Shown: positions 7,186 to 54,627 of the stretch, one piece after another
Layout: every line of letters begins with the position of its first letter
Numbering within the stretch: position 1 is the stretch's first letter
The notes under the pieces: generated by a model
The model's database searches: none
Seen by the model: the letters and a program-made list of their open reading frames with translations, nothing else
Told to the model about the DNA's origin: nothing
Made by a program: the position numbers and the translations under genes
NCBI RefSeq assembly: GCF_001713395.1
Contig: NZ_CP016452.1
Coordinates: 1,426,001 to 1,490,000, forward strand
Direction of reading: 5' to 3'
Origin: Sinorhizobium sp. RAC02
GTDB lineage: Bacteria > Pseudomonadota > Alphaproteobacteria > Rhizobiales > Rhizobiaceae
Length of the DNA: 64,000 nt

Positions 7186-8628
7186 TCAACCGTTCTTCAG
7201 CGATTTGTAGGCTGCGAGTGCGCGTTCGCGCGCCTTGCGATGGTCGACGATCGGCTTGGGATAGGTTTTTCCAAGTTCTACGCCGCCTTCGCTGAGGGCA
7301 TTTTCCGGCGCATCGAAAGGCTTGTGGATCCAGGCGGAATCCAGGTTTTCCAGCTCCGGCACGAAGCTGCGTACGTAAGTCCCATCGGGATCGAACTTTT
7401 CCCCCTGCAGGATCGGGTTAAAGATGCGGAAAAACGGCGAGGCATCCGCGCCGGAGCCTGTCACCCATTGCCAGTTTGCCGCATTCGACGCGGCATCGGC
7501 ATCCACAAGCGTGTCGCGAAACCATTTTTCGCCGTGTCGCCAGTCGATCATCAGGTGCTTGATCAGGAAGGAAGCCGTGATCATGCGCACGCGATTGTGC
7601 ATCCAGCCATGTTTCCAGAGCTGCCGCATCCCCGCATCGACGATGGGGTATCCGGTCATACCGCGTGTCCAGAGCCTGAAATTCTTGCCCGCCGCCTCCC
7701 ATGGAAAGGCGTCGAACCGGTCGTTCCAGTTCTTTTCTGCCAGTTCCGGGAAATGAAAATGCAGATGGTAGCAGAACTCACGCCATGCCAGTTCCTTGCG
7801 GAAATGCACGACATCGTCCTTCGCTGACGTCAGGCCACGGGTCGCGTGCCAGACGCGGGCGGGGGAAATTTCGCCGAACGCCAGGTGGGGCGAGAGCATG
7901 GATGTGGCATCGATTGCCGGAAAGTCGCGATCCGTCTTGTAGCCGTCGATTGCACCGTCAGCGAAGTCGTCAAGGCGCTCGCGTGCCGCGCCTTCTCCCG
8001 GCGTCCAGATGTCCCTGAATGAGGCTGCCCAATCAGGTTTCGTCGGCAGCAGCTGCCAATCGTCCAGTACCTCCGATTTCGGAACTTTTTCGGGAGGCCT
8101 CAGCTTTTCCGGCGCATCGACCGGCTCGTGTGGCTCACCGTCCCGCTCCAGTGCTTTCCAGAAGGGTGTATAGACGCGGTACGGCTTCTTTTCTCCAGTC
8201 AGCAGGCGCATCGGGTCGTGCAGCAATTCCGCCGCGAAGCTGCTGGCGTCGACACCACGTGCCTTGAGTGCCGCCTTGATATCCATGTCGATTTTCACGC
8301 CGGCTGGATTGTGCCTGCGGTTCCAGTAGACGCTGTCGGCGCCGGTATCGCTGATCAGGTCATCAAGAACTTTGCTCGCCGCTCCACTGCGAAGGGTGAG
8401 GGGCGAACCAAGCCTCTCGAGCGTCCCACCAAGGGAGGTCAACGAGTGGTGCAGCCACCAGTCCTGCGCCGCCCCAAGCGGACCGGTACCAGCTTCCTCC
8501 GGCTCGCGTATGTAGAGCGTGATGACGGGACGGCCGGCCTCGGCCGCAGCGATCAGAGCAGGGTTGTCGTCTGTACGCAAATCCTTGCGGAACCAGACGA
8601 TGATCGGAGGCCCACTTTTCATCGTCAT
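7186..8628 (-). CDS. phrB: Deoxyribodipyrimidine photo-lyase (class I CPD photolyase)
   Basis: Light-driven repair of cyclobutane pyrimidine dimers, 480 residues. The N-terminal Rossmann-like antenna domain begins with VWFRKDLRTDDNPAL; the FAD domain holds WREFCYHLHFHFPEL, GYPIVDAGMRQLW, HNRVRMITASFLIKHLMIDW and the WQWVTGSGADASPFFRIFNP block (20 residues), with the tryptophans and Asp expected for the FAD and DNA sites. The ATG at 8628 is preceded by AAGGA. It lies 34 bases after a DUF454 gene on the same strand and is probably cotranscribed with it. Confidence 0.95.
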   Translation of the reverse strand: MTMKSGPPIIVWFRKDLRTDDNPALIAAAEAGRPVITLYIREPEEAGTGPLGAAQDWWLHHSLTSLGGTLERLGSPLTLRSGAASKVLDDLISDTGADSVYWNRRHNPAGVKIDMDIKAALKARGVDASSFAAELLHDPMRLLTGEKKPYRVYTPFWKALERDGEPHEPVDAPEKLRPPEKVPKSEVLDDWQLLPTKPDWAASFRDIWTPGEGAARERLDDFADGAIDGYKTDRDFPAIDATSMLSPHLAFGEISPARVWHATRGLTSAKDDVVHFRKELAWREFCYHLHFHFPELAEKNWNDRFDAFPWEAAGKNFRLWTRGMTGYPIVDAGMRQLWKHGWMHNRVRMITASFLIKHLMIDWRHGEKWFRDTLVDADAASNAANWQWVTGSGADASPFFRIFNPILQGEKFDPDGTYVRSFVPELENLDSAWIHKPFDAPENALSEGGVELGKTYPKPIVDHRKARERALAAYKSLKNG

Positions 8629-8662
8629 GTCTCGTTTCCTTTTTGTGTCGCGACATAGGCGA

Positions 8663-48815: not shown

Positions 48816-49412
48816 TCAAGCCTCGACGAGGCCAGCCCTGATGCGGTTGACGACCGTCCAGACCAGCAGCACGCAGGTCATCGGCTGGATATGCCATGTC
48901 CATGCCGGCAGGACGCCGAAAACGGCGACCAGTGCACCGAGCGCGCCGAACAGCAGTGCCCGGTCGCTCTTGCCCATCGGCCCCTCGTAGTTGCGCCCCT
49001 TGCCATGCGCGACGCCGAGCACGCCGGCAAATTCCGTCAGTGTGGCGAGGAAGATGATCGCGAAGAGCCATGGCAGCGAGAAGGGGGCGATCAGCGCGAA
49101 GGGCACATAGAGCGCGGCATCGGAGATGACATCGGTGATCTCGTTGAGATAGCCGCCAAGCGCGCTCTTCTGCCCATGTTCGCGGGCCAGCATGCCATCG
49201 ACGGCATTGAACGCCATGCGCAGGACCATCCAGATCGGCACTAGCGCGAACAGGGCGGGCTCGGGACGTAGAACGAGAAGCGCGCCGATCGCGACCGAGA
49301 CTGTTGCCGCGATGAGTGTCACCTGGTTGGCGGTGACGCCCAGGCCTGCGAGCCGGCCGACAAGCGGGCGAAGAAGGGTCTGGAAGGACGATTTCAGTTT
49401 ATAGATCGACAT
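48816..49412 (-). CDS. CDP-alcohol phosphatidyltransferase family protein (YnbA-like)
   Basis: Membrane enzyme of 198 residues with five or six hydrophobic segments. The CDP-alcohol motif is NAVDGMLAREHGQKSALG followed by GYLNEITDVISD. Compared with D-x2-D-G-x2-A-R-x8-G-x3-D-x3-D, the first and third Asp appear as Asn, while an extra Asp occurs four residues on. The size matches E. coli YnbA (201). It is divergent, across 120 bases, from genes matching ynbC, ynbD and ynbB. It would join CDP-diacylglycerol to an unknown alcohol. Confidence 0.82.
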   Translation of the reverse strand: MSIYKLKSSFQTLLRPLVGRLAGLGVTANQVTLIAATVSVAIGALLVLRPEPALFALVPIWMVLRMAFNAVDGMLAREHGQKSALGGYLNEITDVISDAALYVPFALIAPFSLPWLFAIIFLATLTEFAGVLGVAHGKGRNYEGPMGKSDRALLFGALGALVAVFGVLPAWTWHIQPMTCVLLVWTVVNRIRAGLVEA

Positions 49413-49532
49413 GAAAGTTTAAATCCGCTCGATTGCCTTCAACAAATGCAGACGCAACGCTATGAAATCAACTGCAAACCGCAGGGCTCATCCGTATAGG
49501 GTGGACAAGGTTTGAAAGGGAGTGAGGATCGT

Positions 49533-51269
49533 ATGATCGAATCGGCGTTTGCGAGCCACGATGGCGTGGAGCTTTTCTATCGCACCTGGCCCGCACGCTC
49601 CGGCACGGCGAAGGGTGCGATCGTGCTCCTGCACCGCGGCCATGAGCACAGCGGCCGGGTGGCCCATATCGCCGAAGAGCTCGGCCTCGACAACTTTGCC
49701 ATCTACGCCTGGGATGCCCGCGGGCATGGCCGATCCCCCGGCGAGCGCGGTCACTCGCCGTCCTTTGCCCATTCGGTGCGCGACCTCGACTGCTTCGTGC
49801 GCCACATCCGCGAGACGGGCGGCTTCGCAATGGATCAGATCGCCGTCATCGCCCAGAGCGTCGGCGCGGTGCTGGCCGCAACCTGGGTGCATGACTATGC
49901 GCCGGATATCCGCGCACTGGTGCTTGCCTCACCCGCTTTCGACGTCAAGCTCTACGTGCCCTTCGCCAAGGAGGGGATTGCGCTGTGGCAGAAGCTGAAG
50001 GGCACGTTCTTCGTCAATTCCTACGTGAAGGCGCGCTTCCTGACGCATGATCCGGCGCGAATCGCCTCCTTCGAGGCCGATCCGCTGATCACCCGCCCAA
50101 TCGCCTCCAACATCCTGCTCGAACTCTACGAGGCGGCGGACCGGGTGGTCGCCGATGCGCGCGCCATCACCGTGCCGACACAACTCCTCATCTCGGGCGC
50201 CGATTTCGTCGTGCGCCACGGGCCGCAGCACCGTTTCTTCGAAAACCTCGGCAGCACGATCAAGGAACGGCATGTGCTGCCCGGTTTCTACCACGACACG
50301 CTGGGCGAGCGGGATCGGGCGAAAGCCCTGGAGAAGGTGCGCGCCTTCGTCACGGCGCGTTTCGCCGAGCCGCCGGTGGTGGCGGATGTCCGCCGTGCGC
50401 ATCTTTCCGGCTACACCCGCGACGAGGCCGACCGGCTGGCGACGCCGCTGCCGCTTCTGTCGCCGCGCGGGCTCTACTGGGCGATGACGCGCGCCTCGAT
50501 CCGCTTTGGCGGGCTGTTTTCCAAAGGCATCGCCACTGGCGTGCGCACCGGCTTCGATTCCGGCTCGACGCTGGATTACGTCTATGAGAACGAACCGCGC
50601 GGCCTGGGGCCGGGGGGCCGCCTGATCGACCGGCAGTTTATCGACGCCATCGGCTGGCGCGGCATCCGCCAGCGCAAGGTCCATCTGGAGGAACTGATCG
50701 GCAAGGCACTCTCGCGTCTCAAGACCGAAGGCAAGCCGCTTCGCGTGCTGGATATCGCAGCCGGTCACGGGCGCTACGTGCTCGACGCGGTGGCGGCATC
50801 GGAGGCGAAACCCGAAAGGATCCGCCTGCAGGACTGTTCGCCGATCAACGTGGAGAAGGGGACGGCCCTGATCGCCGAGCGGGGTCTTCAAGGCGTCGCC
50901 GCCTTCCACCGCGCCGATGCCTTCGATACGGAAGGACTGGCGACGATAGAACCGCGACCGACGCTTGCCATCGTCTCCGGCCTCTACGAACTCTTCCCGG
51001 ACAATGCCATGATCGAGGCCTCGCTTGCCGGCCTTGCGCGTGCCGTGGAGCCCGGGTCGCTTTTGATCTACACCGGCCAACCCTGGCATCCGCAGCTGGA
51101 AATGATCGCCCGCGCACTGACCTCGCACCGTGGCGGCGAGGCCTGGATCATGCGCCGGCGTACCCAGCAGGAAATGGACCAGCTCGTTGCCGCCGCCGGC
51201 TTCCGCAAGATCGAGCAGCGCATCGACAAGTGGGGCATTTTCACTGTCTCGCTGGCCGAACGTCTCTGA
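49533..51269 (+). CDS. Bifunctional alpha/beta hydrolase and class I SAM methyltransferase (YnbC-like)
   Basis: Fusion protein of 578 residues, close to YnbC (585). Residues 1-290 are a monoacylglycerol-lipase-like hydrolase: LLHRGHEHSGRVAHIAEELG, WDARGHGRSPGERG and nucleophile elbow IAQSVGA (Ser with Ala in place of the first Gly). Residues about 380-578 are a methyltransferase, with motif I VLDIAAGHGRY near 405 and a later GLYELFPDN. ATG 49533 has GTGAGGATCG before it; TTG 49512 is unlikely. Probably acts on a lysophospholipid or headgroup. First gene of a five-gene operon. Confidence 0.87.
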   Translation: MIESAFASHDGVELFYRTWPARSGTAKGAIVLLHRGHEHSGRVAHIAEELGLDNFAIYAWDARGHGRSPGERGHSPSFAHSVRDLDCFVRHIRETGGFAMDQIAVIAQSVGAVLAATWVHDYAPDIRALVLASPAFDVKLYVPFAKEGIALWQKLKGTFFVNSYVKARFLTHDPARIASFEADPLITRPIASNILLELYEAADRVVADARAITVPTQLLISGADFVVRHGPQHRFFENLGSTIKERHVLPGFYHDTLGERDRAKALEKVRAFVTARFAEPPVVADVRRAHLSGYTRDEADRLATPLPLLSPRGLYWAMTRASIRFGGLFSKGIATGVRTGFDSGSTLDYVYENEPRGLGPGGRLIDRQFIDAIGWRGIRQRKVHLEELIGKALSRLKTEGKPLRVLDIAAGHGRYVLDAVAASEAKPERIRLQDCSPINVEKGTALIAERGLQGVAAFHRADAFDTEGLATIEPRPTLAIVSGLYELFPDNAMIEASLAGLARAVEPGSLLIYTGQPWHPQLEMIARALTSHRGGEAWIMRRRTQQEMDQLVAAAGFRKIEQRIDKWGIFTVSLAERL

Positions 51270-51276
51270 GGCCGGC

Positions 51277-52611
51277 ATGGGAGAGGGCATCGTACCGGTT
51301 CTTGTCACCGATCGCCGCGCGGTCTTTCGCGCGGCGGCACTCTGGCTCGCCGTCCTGGCGCCGTTCTTCTACCTGACCTACGGCACCGCAAACTGGCTGG
51401 CTTCTTTACGGACAGGGGTGCCGAACCTCGCCTTCGGCTGGGAAACACACATTCCCTTCATCGCCTGGACGATCATCCCCTACTGGTCGATCAACGCCTT
51501 CTATGCGCTCTCGCTCTTCGTCAACGACACGCCGGATGAGGTGGGCCGGCTGGCACGGCGCTATCTTACGGCGCAGGTCGTCGCCGTCGTCTGCTTCATT
51601 GTCCTGCCCTTGCAGGCCATTTTCGTGCGGCCGGAGACGGACGGCCTGCCCGGCTTCATGTTCGACGTGCTTGGCGGTTTCGACAAGCCATTCAACCAGG
51701 CGCCGTCACTGCATATCGCGCTACTCGTCATCATCTGGGATCATTGGCGTGGGCGGCTACACGGGATCGGGCTCGCCGTCTGGCATGTCTGGTGCCTGCT
51801 GATCGGCCTTTCCGTGCTGACAACCTGGCAGCATCACGTCATCGACATCCCGACCGGCGCCTTGCTCGGCCTCTTCGCGCTCTGGCTTTTTCCGGCGGGC
51901 AAACCCTCACCGCTCGCCGGTTTCCGCCGGACAAATGATGCGAAGGCGTGGCGGCTCGCGACCTACTACGCCGCCGGCGCAGTGGTGTTCCTCATCCTGA
52001 CAATCCTCGCGACGTTGGATTCCGGGGCGGGGCTGCTTCTGCTCTGGCCGAGCCTAGCGCTTGCCATCGTGGCACTCGGCTATGCCGGGGCAGGGACGGC
52101 CGTTTTCCAGAAACAGGCGGATGGACGCATCAGCCTTGCCAGCCGATGGCTGCTTGCACCCTACCGCCTTGGCGCGCGGCTGAACATCCTGTGGTGGACC
52201 CGGAAGCTTCCACCGGCAGTGGAGGTGGCGGACGGCGTCTTCCTCGGTCGCTATCCATCCCGTGGGGGCCTTTCGACCTATGTCGCGGTGATCGACCTGT
52301 CGGCGGAATTTCCGGGACATAACGTGCCTGGCCTCGCCTGGCACGCCTTTCCCGTCCTTGATCTGCTTTCTGCCTCCGCGCCGCGCATTCGTGAAGCGGC
52401 GATGGCGGTCGAGGAGGCGCGGCGGCACGGCCCCGTTCTCGTCAGTTGCGCGCTCGGCTTCCAACGGAGCGCCGCCGTTGCAAGCTGCTGGCTGATGCGG
52501 TCGGGCCACGCCACCAATGCGGCCGCGGCCGTGGCGCAGGTCAAGGCGAAGGGCCGGCCGGTCCATCTTCCATTTGACGCCTATGCCCTTATCGAGGAGG
52601 CCGCGCGGTGA
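51277..52611 (+). CDS. PAP2 and dual-specificity phosphatase fusion protein (YnbD-like)
   Basis: Membrane protein of 444 residues, close to YnbD (about 430). The N-terminal 290 residues have eight or so hydrophobic segments and PAP2-like lipid phosphatase motifs QAPSLHIALL and WQHHVIDIPTGALLG (PSxH and HxxxD). The C-terminal 150 residues are a dual-specificity/tyrosine phosphatase with the CX5R loop VSCALGFQRS (Cys near 388) and an upstream Asp in VLDLL. It could dephosphorylate a phosphatidyl-headgroup phosphate. ATG 51277 is used; the frame upstream lies in the preceding gene. The stop overlaps the next start. Confidence 0.87.
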   Translation: MGEGIVPVLVTDRRAVFRAAALWLAVLAPFFYLTYGTANWLASLRTGVPNLAFGWETHIPFIAWTIIPYWSINAFYALSLFVNDTPDEVGRLARRYLTAQVVAVVCFIVLPLQAIFVRPETDGLPGFMFDVLGGFDKPFNQAPSLHIALLVIIWDHWRGRLHGIGLAVWHVWCLLIGLSVLTTWQHHVIDIPTGALLGLFALWLFPAGKPSPLAGFRRTNDAKAWRLATYYAAGAVVFLILTILATLDSGAGLLLLWPSLALAIVALGYAGAGTAVFQKQADGRISLASRWLLAPYRLGARLNILWWTRKLPPAVEVADGVFLGRYPSRGGLSTYVAVIDLSAEFPGHNVPGLAWHAFPVLDLLSASAPRIREAAMAVEEARRHGPVLVSCALGFQRSAAVASCWLMRSGHATNAAAAVAQVKAKGRPVHLPFDAYALIEEAAR

Positions 52612-53045
52612 CGGACTGGAAGGGGGTTGCAGGCGACGCCGGTCGCCGCCTGCGGCGGAACGGCCTGATCGGCGGCGCGCTGGCTCTGCTGATCCTCGCG
52701 ATCGCCCCGCCAACGGCGGGCGTGCATGGCTTTACCGCACCGCTCGGCTGGTGGCTGCTGCTGGCCTTCTGCCTGTTGCCGCTTGCCGTCTCGGTCCATC
52801 TGCTGTTTGACGCAGCACTCTTCCAGCTTGCCGCGTCCCATGACACGGAAGAGGCAGGTCTCTCTGCCATCGATGATGTCTTGTCTCGCACGGGGCTCCG
52901 GGCGAGGGACCACACGCCGCGATCGCTGGCGGAGCGTCTTCAGGGATGCCGCCGGCTTGTCTGGTTCCAGCGCGCATCGCTCGCCATCGGTGTGGTGCTC
53001 TATGCCATCCTTCTCCTCGACGCGATGGATGGAGGCGGCGCATGA
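52608..53045 (+). CDS. Hypothetical membrane protein in the ynb-like operon
   Basis: Protein of 145 residues starting at GTG 52608, which overlaps the previous stop by four bases. Three hydrophobic segments: about 20-37 (IGGALALLILAIAPP), 45-70 (LGWWLLLAFCLLPLAVSVHL) and 122-140. A cytoplasmic stretch between the second and third contains ASHDTEEAGLSAIDDVLSRT. I recognise no family. Overlaps at both ends indicate tight coupling with the phosphatase and acyltransferase, so it may be a small subunit or scaffold. Confidence 0.75.
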   Translation: MTDWKGVAGDAGRRLRRNGLIGGALALLILAIAPPTAGVHGFTAPLGWWLLLAFCLLPLAVSVHLLFDAALFQLAASHDTEEAGLSAIDDVLSRTGLRARDHTPRSLAERLQGCRRLVWFQRASLAIGVVLYAILLLDAMDGGGA

Positions 53046-53695
53046 CGGGTGGTGGAGCGTCCCTCCTGCAAAAAGTGTCCGGCGCAGCACTTGCGGGCCT
53101 TTCCCGCGCCGTCACCGGCGTCAGGCCGATCTGGGCGGGCGCAGCACCGAACGGCCGGCAGCGCATCTATTTTGCCAATCATGCAAGCCATGGTGATTTC
53201 ATCCTGATCTCGACCTGCCTGTATCCGGCCGAGCGCAGCCGCACCGCCGCCGTCGCGGGCGCCGACTATTGGAACGCGGATTCCGTCCGCCGTTTCATTT
53301 CCGGAAAGCTGCTGCGCACGGTGCTCGTCGAGCGCAACTGGGTCGAGCGCACGGCCGATCCTTTGCAGGTCATGCTCTCGGCGCTCGAAGCGGGCGAATC
53401 CTTGATCTTCTTTCCGGAGGGCACGCGCAACATGACCGAAGAGCCGCTGCTGCGCTTCCGCTCAGGCCTCTACAATCTCGCGGCCGCCCGGCCGGATGTC
53501 GAACTTGTGCCCTGCTGGATCGAGAACATGTCGCGCGTGCTGCCCAAGGGAGCGGTACTGCCCGTGCCGTTGCTCTGCCGCGTGGTTTTTGGCGCGCCGA
53601 TCGTGCTGGAGGCCGAGGAGGAGCGCAAGGCTTTTCTCGACAGGGCCCGACAGGCACTTTTGGCGCTGGCGCCGCAAAATGATGGAAACCGCTGA
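53042..53695 (+). CDS. 1-acyl-sn-glycerol-3-phosphate acyltransferase (PlsC-like)
   Basis: Acyltransferase of 217 residues. Catalytic motif I NHASHGD (His and Asp), motif III FPEGTR, and motif IV region VPCWIENM. Typical PlsC length. It would make phosphatidic acid or another acylated lipid for the CDP-DAG synthase next to it. ATG 53042 overlaps the previous stop; the upstream frame to 52946 is a shadow. E. coli ynbABCD has no such gene as far as I recall. Confidence 0.87.
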   Translation: MTGGGASLLQKVSGAALAGLSRAVTGVRPIWAGAAPNGRQRIYFANHASHGDFILISTCLYPAERSRTAAVAGADYWNADSVRRFISGKLLRTVLVERNWVERTADPLQVMLSALEAGESLIFFPEGTRNMTEEPLLRFRSGLYNLAAARPDVELVPCWIENMSRVLPKGAVLPVPLLCRVVFGAPIVLEAEEERKAFLDRARQALLALAPQNDGNR

Positions 53696-54627
53696 TGAGC
53701 GACGATACCACACGCCTCTTTTTCGGCCTCGTTGCCGTGCTCGTCACGGCAAGCGTCGTGGCTGGTGCGCTTTCCTATCGCAGTCCGAAACCGCTGCCGT
53801 CGACGCTCGAAAATCTCAACGCGCGCATCAAGGCCTGGTGGATCATGGTGACGGGCATCAGCGTCGCCTTCCTGTTCGGCACGGGCGGGGTGATCCTGCT
53901 GTTCGCCTTCGTCTCCTTCGCGGCGCTTCGCGAATATGTCACGCTGACCAACACGCGCCATGCCGACCGCTGGACGCTGCTCGGCATGTTCCTGATCATC
54001 ATACCGGTGCAGTACTACCTGATCTGGATCGACTGGTACGGGCTCTATTCGATCTTCATCCCCGTCTACTGCTTCCTCGCCATGCCGGCGCTGACGGCAA
54101 TCCGGGGCGATACATCGCGTTTCCTCGAACGGGTCACCGAACAGCAATGGGGCATCATGCTCTCGGTCTATTGCATCAGCCACGTGCCGGCGCTTGTGAC
54201 CTTGCCCATTCCGGGCAACGAGGGACGCGGCCTGCTTCTGATCGCCTTCCTCATCGCCACCGTGCAGGGCAGCGACGTGCTGCAATATATCTTCGGAAAA
54301 CTCTTCGGCCGGCACAAGGTCGCGCCGAGCATTTCGCCGTCGAAGACCTGGGAAGGCCTGATCGGCGGCATTGCCAGCGCCTCGCTGCTTGGGGCCGGGC
54401 TCTACTGGCTGACACCCTTCTCACCCTTCGAGGCGGGCGTGCTGGCAGGACTTGCCTGCATCATGGGCTTCTTCGGCGGCCTGGTCGCTTCGGCAATCAA
54501 GCGCGACCGCGGCGTCAAGGACTGGGGCCACATGATCGAGGGCCATGGCGGCATGCTCGACCGTGCAGATAGCCTCGTCTTCGCAGCCCCGGTCTTCTTT
54601 CACATCGTGCGCTACGCCTGGACCTGA
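53695..54627 (+). CDS. Phosphatidate cytidylyltransferase family (CdsA/YnbB-like)
   Basis: Membrane enzyme of 310 residues (YnbB 298) with about eight hydrophobic segments. The C-terminal CDP-DAG synthase signature is readable: SPSKTWEGLIGG, ASAIKRDRGVKDWGHMIEGH and GGMLDRADSLVFAAPVFF (Asp ligands). It makes CDP-diacylglycerol from phosphatidic acid. ATG 53695 shares a base with the acyltransferase stop. The essential housekeeping cdsA is expected elsewhere, next to other lipid or frr/uppS genes, so this is likely a dedicated paralogue. Confidence 0.9.
   Translation: MSDDTTRLFFGLVAVLVTASVVAGALSYRSPKPLPSTLENLNARIKAWWIMVTGISVAFLFGTGGVILLFAFVSFAALREYVTLTNTRHADRWTLLGMFLIIIPVQYYLIWIDWYGLYSIFIPVYCFLAMPALTAIRGDTSRFLERVTEQQWGIMLSVYCISHVPALVTLPIPGNEGRGLLLIAFLIATVQGSDVLQYIFGKLFGRHKVAPSISPSKTWEGLIGGIASASLLGAGLYWLTPFSPFEAGVLAGLACIMGFFGGLVASAIKRDRGVKDWGHMIEGHGGMLDRADSLVFAAPVFFHIVRYAWT

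Follow-up and report, generated by a model that had tools for sequence, protein, structure and literature searches.

The 64,000-nucleotide stretch of DNA analysed here (the window; positions 1,426,001 to 1,490,000 of contig NZ_CP016452.1, deposited as Sinorhizobium sp. RAC02, the genome being called the Shinella genome or G000 below) carries at positions 48816-54627 six genes that, judged by sequence, are a Shinella-type orthologue of antagonism resistance cluster 1 (Arc1) of Pseudomonas aeruginosa. The ynbABCD genes of Escherichia coli appear to be a reduced form of the same cluster. On balance, and with modest confidence, we read this cluster as an inducible, self-contained inner-membrane pathway for a specialised phosphatidyl lipid, which would protect the cell against lipase attack. 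The original prediction, made from the letters of the window, had described an extended ynbABCD-like locus, and this description has held: orthologues of all four E. coli proteins are present (BLASTP identities of 45% over 196 columns for YnbA, 41% over 301 for YnbB, 57% over 576 for YnbC and 36% over 418 for YnbD), together with a PlsC-type acyltransferase and a three-helix membrane protein, here named T. Papers are cited by PubMed Central (PMC) number.

Orthology to Arc1 of Pseudomonas aeruginosa

Ting et al. (2022) gave the names arc1A-F to the P. aeruginosa genes PA2541-PA2536, five of which are related to phospholipids, and reported that the cluster is controlled by Gac/Rsm, shows low basal expression and is needed to survive the attack of B. 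thailandensis by its type VI secretion system (T6SS) (PMC8926400). PA2541 is also among the genes with a known RsmA site (PMC4066749). More recently, P. aeruginosa was found to lose part of its resistance to V. cholerae and A. baylyi lipase effectors when arc1A is missing, and arc1A/arc3A/aas loss had no effect on two non-lipase effectors (PMC12663445, 2025).

The annealing parts of four published primers for the deletion of PA2541 map around the YnbA gene of one of our loci (L183), with 1, 0, 0 and 0 mismatches, and this locus holds ynbA, ynbC, ynbD, T, plsC and ynbB in order. Because of these two observations we regard the window locus as orthologous to Arc1; the assignment of L183 to P. aeruginosa is based solely on the primer matches, the start-codon primer for PA2541 being present in 1 of 25 genomes of that genus. 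Between the window and L183 the proteins are 55% (YnbA), 63% (YnbC), 47% (YnbD), 51% (PlsC) and 59% (YnbB) identical by BLAST, and T is recognised by profile only (E 9.5e-30). All six genes are common to both clusters and, after ynbA/arc1A, stand in the same order; in the window, however, ynbA is divergent from the other five, and defence has been shown in P. aeruginosa only. The Shinella genome additionally encodes a DUF2339 (Arc3A-type) protein in a 984-aa frame (G000:C1:1836826-1839225). Among the open-licence PMC papers listed (ten of 26), none named ynbA or ynbC together with Arc1A, although the link may be in print elsewhere, and the main text of the eLife paper on arc1 contains no 'ynb' (PMC8926400).

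In the window, the open reading frame (ORF) of ynbA (arc1A orthologue; 48816-49412, 198 aa) lies on the minus strand. The plus strand carries ynbC (arc1B; 49533-51269, 578 aa), ynbD (arc1C; 51277-52611, 444 aa), T (arc1D; 52608-53045, 145 aa, GTG start), the plsC-type gene (arc1E; 53042-53695, 217 aa) and ynbB (arc1F; 53695-54627, 310 aa). The gene overlaps that had been predicted exist at ynbD/T, T/plsC and plsC/ynbB (4, 4 and 1 bases) but not between ynbC and ynbD, which are separated by a 7-base gap, nor at ynbA on the other strand. A stoichiometric membrane complex, as originally deduced from them, cannot be inferred from such overlaps, which indicate translational coupling at most.

An altered metal site in YnbA

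For comparison, 108 loci were mapped, comprising the window, E. coli, the best 80 of at least 555 named contigs (with titles almost all from Hyphomicrobiales) and 26 from a draw of Pseudomonadota. These loci are not independent, several being the same genome twice (e.g. L137 and L066), and 16 YnbC representatives remain below 74% identity; furthermore, a gene that seems to be missing may lie beyond the end of a contig, which explains the lack of YnbA in L098. Given the conservation of catalytic residues across as many as 108 loci, the six-gene locus is evidently not due to chance.

YnbA has the fold of the CDP-alcohol phosphotransferase superfamily and scores above the cut-off of the Pfam family CDP-OH_P_transf (PF01066). 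The superfamily signature D1xxD2G1xxAR...G2xxxD3xxxD4 is nevertheless absent, since all 107 YnbA proteins read NxxDGxxAR...GxxxNxxxD, i.e. D1 and D3 are replaced by asparagine (N69 and N90 in the window), which we count among the new findings. D2, D4 and R77 are invariant in the same 107 proteins, and the three other CDP-alcohol transferases of the Shinella genome have aspartate at all four signature places. Two further arginines, R151 and R190, are likewise invariant and align with R155 and R195 of phosphatidylinositol phosphate (PIP) synthase, known from Renibacterium and Mycobacterium, where they bind inositol phosphate (PMC6506517); hence, the acceptor of YnbA is probably an anionic alcohol of the phosphate type. 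YnbA differs from PIP synthase at position 94, where that enzyme has a basic residue with a role in connection with inositol phosphate (R94; PMC6506517) and YnbA has V in 87, I in 12, L in 5, M in 2 and A in 1 of the 107 cases. It also stays below the cut-offs of the models for PIP synthase (NF045883; 50.4 bits, cut-off 170) and for the phosphatidylglycerophosphate (PGP) synthase PgsA (TIGR00560; 17.8 bits, cut-off 109.1). With its altered metal site and these low scores, YnbA is unlikely to be a simple duplicate of an established synthase. Plain synthesis of phosphatidylinositol or phosphatidylglycerol, considered as the task of YnbA, is supported neither by the model scores nor by the conserved residues.

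A divergent YnbA (NxxDGxxAV...GxxxN; 75.6 bits on the YnbA profile) was observed in locus L181 (L181:9115-11698) beside homologues of PlsC and YnbB, and may represent a sister subfamily with the same two asparagines.

The acyltransferase, YnbB and the hydrolase-methyltransferase YnbC

The PlsC-type protein matches the Pfam family Acyltransferase (PF01553) with 66.3 bits at a cut-off of 23 and contains HX4D and FPEGTR; H47 and D52 are found in 85 of 86 sequences and E126, G127 and R129 in all 86. YnbB is a paralogue of the cytidine diphosphate diacylglycerol (CDP-DAG) synthase CdsA (CTP_transf_1, PF01148, 230.4 bits at a cut-off of 24; PDB phosphatidate cytidylyltransferase 4q2g, E 3.9e-27), with ten conserved C-terminal residues in 86 or 87 of 87 proteins. 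The CdsA equivalog PRK11624 gives 107.7 bits, far from its cut-off of 385, and the N-terminal half of the E. coli YnbB is unlike CdsA (PMC7018664). A second, weaker CdsA-type match of 99.7 bits at G000:C1:1261785 is likely the housekeeping CdsA of the genome. Because of this match and the three other CDP-alcohol transferases, the cluster itself does not appear to be housekeeping.

YnbC is a fusion protein. Its hydrolase part is of the monoacylglycerol-lipase type (Hydrolase_4, PF12146, 237.8 bits; PDB monoacylglycerol lipase 6qe2, E 2.4e-21), and its second part is a class I methyltransferase (Methyltransf_20, PF12147, 493.6 bits). Both the hydrolase residues S109/D224/H254 and the methyltransferase residues D407/G411/G413/D434 are invariant in 108 of 108 proteins.

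The phosphatase YnbD and the three-helix protein T

YnbD combines a membrane phosphatase/transferase part of the PAP2_3 type with a dual-specificity phosphatase (DSP) domain (DSPc). In the window copy, DSPc reaches 30.9 bits, under the cut-off of 33.5, and PAP2_3 and PAP2 give no match at E 0.1; among 22 orthologues, DSPc is found in all 22 and PAP2_3 and PAP2 in 15 each. The residues of both parts, namely H146 and D190 (PAP2 His/Asp; 104/104) and C391 and R397 (DSP CX5R; 103/104), are conserved. Residues 227-424, a membrane segment plus the DSP domain, match PRK12361-type proteins, which we take to be lipid-kinase fusions; if so, this module recurs with other lipid enzymes. In one genome a 720-aa WG-repeat protein gene is situated between ynbC and ynbD (L133:10199-12358).

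T is modelled as three long helices and one short helix (mean pLDDT 86.9). Its occurrence was counted in two ways, by a genome search and from the reading frame after ynbD, the latter (91 loci) requiring a short motif and thus being biased toward that motif. Within these 91 loci, D68, L71, D89, L92 and R110 are invariant; ynbD overlaps T in 82 of them, and in 71 the overlap is exactly 4 bases. The window copy has no Pfam match, and the best among 16 members has an E value of 0.066; there was also no match to PDB sequences and no PDB fold match at E 0.001, by which a new fold is not proven. We count T as new, in the sense of a conserved protein that, by these searches, lacks a Pfam family. Altogether, the cluster shares families and catalytic residues with CdsA, PlsC, PAP2_3/DSP phosphatases and monoacylglycerol lipase, with the difference that its proteins are dedicated paralogues gathered in one cluster.

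Distribution and modular composition

The linkage of these genes, which the original prediction expected to recur in other lineages, does recur: near YnbC, YnbA is found in 107, YnbD in 104, YnbB in 87 and PlsC in 86 of the 108 non-independent loci. Among 398 Pseudomonadota genomes, YnbC (PF12147) is present in 27, belonging to 13 genera and 9 families, and within the genus of the window in 19 of 21 genomes. All six genes stand at the locus in 23 of the 27 YnbC genomes, from 7 families (T taken from the genome search), the others being G043, G253, G204 and G296; in G324, PlsC and YnbB are inverted. The acyltransferase and T, originally regarded as additions at this place, therefore belong to the usual cluster, and their status as local additions can be ruled out.

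YnbA was found at 200 bits or more in 36 of the 398 genomes, i.e. in all 27 with YnbC and in nine more. A YnbD matched over both parts is present in 26 genomes, and T occurs in exactly these, each of which also has YnbC; G296 has neither YnbD nor T. In 19 other genomes YnbD is matched only in part (either the PAP2 or the DSP part). Fisher tests of YnbD against YnbC and of YnbC against YnbA in the 398 genomes ignore relatedness. Eleven YnbA loci without YnbC were compared. Eight of them (L171-L178) hold YnbA, YnbB and PlsC side by side, L181 has its divergent YnbA with PlsC and YnbB, L180 has pieces of YnbA and YnbB, and L179 a degenerate YnbA alone. Furthermore, G253 and G043 have PlsC and YnbB not at the locus but side by side elsewhere in the genome, and in G204 ynbD and T are together about 40 kb away. 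These nine core-only loci, the displaced pairs and the near-perfect co-occurrence of YnbC, YnbD and T are the reasons why the cluster looks like a core of YnbA, PlsC and YnbB with an add-on of YnbC, YnbD and T, modules which we also count as new.

In three of the eight core-only loci with a regular YnbA, the next protein after PlsC is a VTT-domain (DedA-like) one of about 180 aa (L173:861-1397; L174, end of ORF 7442-8632; L175:12027-12716). The three are about 40% alike, and a Pfam scan of two gave 29 bits for L173, under the cut-off of 33.9, and none for L175. DedA proteins move lipids, and such a neighbour would fit the transport of the pathway product.

E. coli K-12 MG1655 has the order ynbA, ynbB, ynbC, ynbD, with proteins of 201, 298, 585 and 430 aa, as the original prediction had correctly stated (about 430 for YnbD). 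Neither the acyltransferase nor T is at its locus, hence E. coli does not fully fit the module scheme. A place covering at least 80% of ynbABCD exists in 4242 of 5426 complete E. coli genomes. In strain ET12567 (NZ_CP045457.1) the ynb match contains an IS4-like element (ISVsa5) and the CDP-alcohol transferase is annotated twice; ynbA is probably interrupted there.

Two records have unexpected titles. The contig JAHREI010000008.1 (L093), titled Bacillus subtilis, bears a Pseudochrobactrum-like copy of the cluster and is probably a mislabelled or contaminated assembly, and a Shinella-like YnbC (91.5%) is found on the plasmid NZ_CP084753.1, titled Roseateles sp. XES5, pointing to a misnamed strain or a recent transfer.

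Genomic setting

The cluster is flanked by genes for a RarA/MgsA-type ATPase and a carbon-nitrogen hydrolase and is located on contig C3 (2.22 Mb) of a genome of 6.63 Mb in three contigs; the window YnbC is 98% identical to that on a Shinella kummerowiae contig, by which the window most likely belongs to Shinella. The 120-bp spacer between ynbA and ynbC (49413-49532) is the presumed control region and contains a short stretch conserved in Shinella. Altogether, 57 divergent ynbA-ynbC spacers were gathered, 21 of which were aligned, and an RpoE2-like pattern had 0 matches in the 57. A BLAST search for further conserved neighbours (ORFs of at least 110 aa, 21 loci) showed no proteins recurring in more than 3 loci apart from the five larger ones of the operon. 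PADLOC models of anti-phage defence gave one weak match to the six proteins, of 17.3 bits, with the methyltransferase part of YnbC.

Proposed pathway and alternative explanations

The route of the original prediction, from acyltransferase over CDP-DAG synthase and CDP-alcohol transferase to phosphatase, is backed by conserved catalytic residues, its product is not. From these enzymes we infer an order of reactions, an acceptor, a product and a role of T. PlsC would acylate lysophosphatidic acid to phosphatidic acid, which YnbB would convert into CDP-DAG, and YnbA would join CDP-DAG to an anionic, probably phosphorylated alcohol by means of its modified metal site. YnbD, with T as its putative membrane partner, would then take a phosphate off the YnbA product, and YnbC may trim an acyl ester and subsequently methylate. 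The product would replace or rebuild membrane lipid under attack and permit survival of lipase toxins. The role and the inducibility known from P. aeruginosa may hold in Shinella; Gac/Rsm is said to be limited to gamma-proteobacteria (PMC8926400).

A more far-reaching version is, in our view, possible rather than probable. According to it, YnbA/Arc1A would found a class of CDP-alcohol phosphotransferases with an asparagine metal site that makes an undescribed phospholipid; PlsC, YnbB and YnbA would be the synthetic core in many Pseudomonadota, YnbC, YnbD and T would dephosphorylate, trim and methylate its product into an inducible phospholipase-resistant lipid shield, and E. coli ynb would be the reduced form.

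Several observations weigh against a defensive lipid pathway. PIP synthase uses D1 and D3 as ligands of its catalytic metals, and the two asparagines of YnbA could mean a dead or a differently working enzyme. Since the E. coli locus does without T and PlsC, neither of the two can be essential to the cluster in all organisms. The synthesis of CDP-DAG by YnbB in vitro is the sole activity shown for the pathway in the available text (PMC7018664), the ynbB knockout grew normally (PMC6362211), and E. coli YnbD rescued neither PGP-phosphatase nor C55-pyrophosphate-phosphatase strains (PMC7413402). Against V. cholerae, arc1A of P. aeruginosa has only an auxiliary part next to arc3A (PMC12663445). The arc1 defect could not be traced to any one of the B. 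thailandensis toxins tested, and arc1 loss modestly raised the survival of B. thailandensis too, hence the role of arc1 may not be purely defensive (PMC8926400). Finally, no IcmF_C match was obtained in the Shinella genome, which says nothing on its being attacked. A genome-wide c-di-GMP sorting screen of E. coli lists ynbA in a table of loci (PMC13031359), which a defence against lipases does not explain.

Among the alternatives, the cluster could be a repair line for an ordinary phospholipid, in which, during an attack, lysolipids or fatty acids would be removed by the hydrolase while the set of PlsC, YnbB, YnbA and YnbD would restore phosphatidylglycerol or another known lipid of this kind. 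Four arc1 genes are homologous to enzymes of phosphatidylglycerol synthesis (Ting et al.; PMC8926400). In favour of such a task, the hydrolase of YnbC is similar to monoacylglycerol lipase and, at a score far below the cut-off of the model (42 of 362 bits), to lysophospholipase L2, and the many matches of the DSP domain of YnbD include the PGP phosphatase PTPMT1. The lack of rescue by YnbD and the normal growth of the knockout, together with the inability of YnbB to replace CdsA (PMC6362211), however, speak against a plain second phosphatidylglycerol line, and we consider this explanation unlikely. Still less probable is a detoxification led by YnbC, in which this protein would hydrolyse and methylate the fatty acids or lysolipids set free, and the synthetic genes would recycle glycerophosphate only. 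It would agree with YnbC being the best conserved of the four ynb proteins and with its fully conserved lipase triad and S-adenosylmethionine motif, but the core exists without YnbC in nine loci (one with the divergent YnbA), all 27 YnbC genomes have YnbA, and the deletion of arc1A alone weakens the lipase resistance of P. aeruginosa (PMC12663445).

A backup for the glycolipid MPIase (GlcNAc-PP-DAG) is the role that had been proposed for YnbB, the overproduction of which raises MPIase in E. coli (PMC6362211; reviewed in PMC7018664); moreover, ynbB was among five genes with fewer transposon insertions in a strain making only phosphoglyceride-linked enterobacterial common antigen (PMC8609368). 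MPIase was, however, unchanged in the ynbB knockout (PMC6362211), ynbB was not needed for that antigen (PMC8609368), and no glycosyltransferase family was detected by Pfam in 18 ORFs of other loci or among the conserved neighbours, which makes such a role of the cluster unlikely, and we give it very little credence. Equally improbable is a YnbA without transferase activity that would serve as a scaffold or sensor binding lipids, as its two exchanged metal-binding aspartates might suggest, since a dead enzyme would not need the invariant D2, D4, R77 and acceptor-site arginines and YnbB stands beside YnbA in most loci.

Meaning for the Arc1/ynb family

The cluster belongs to a known kind, Arc1/ynb, and its lipid is the unsolved part. 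The E. coli genes had been called uncharacterised, which holds for most of ynbABCD but not entirely, given the effect of YnbB on MPIase and the biological role of the orthologous Arc1. The modules and the asparagine-modified transferase point to YnbA, PlsC and YnbB as the first proteins to study and to the residues worth testing. Through the link to Arc1 the E. coli genes acquire a probable role, namely in surviving attack by lipases, and laboratory E. coli becomes a system in which the lipid of Arc1 could be found.
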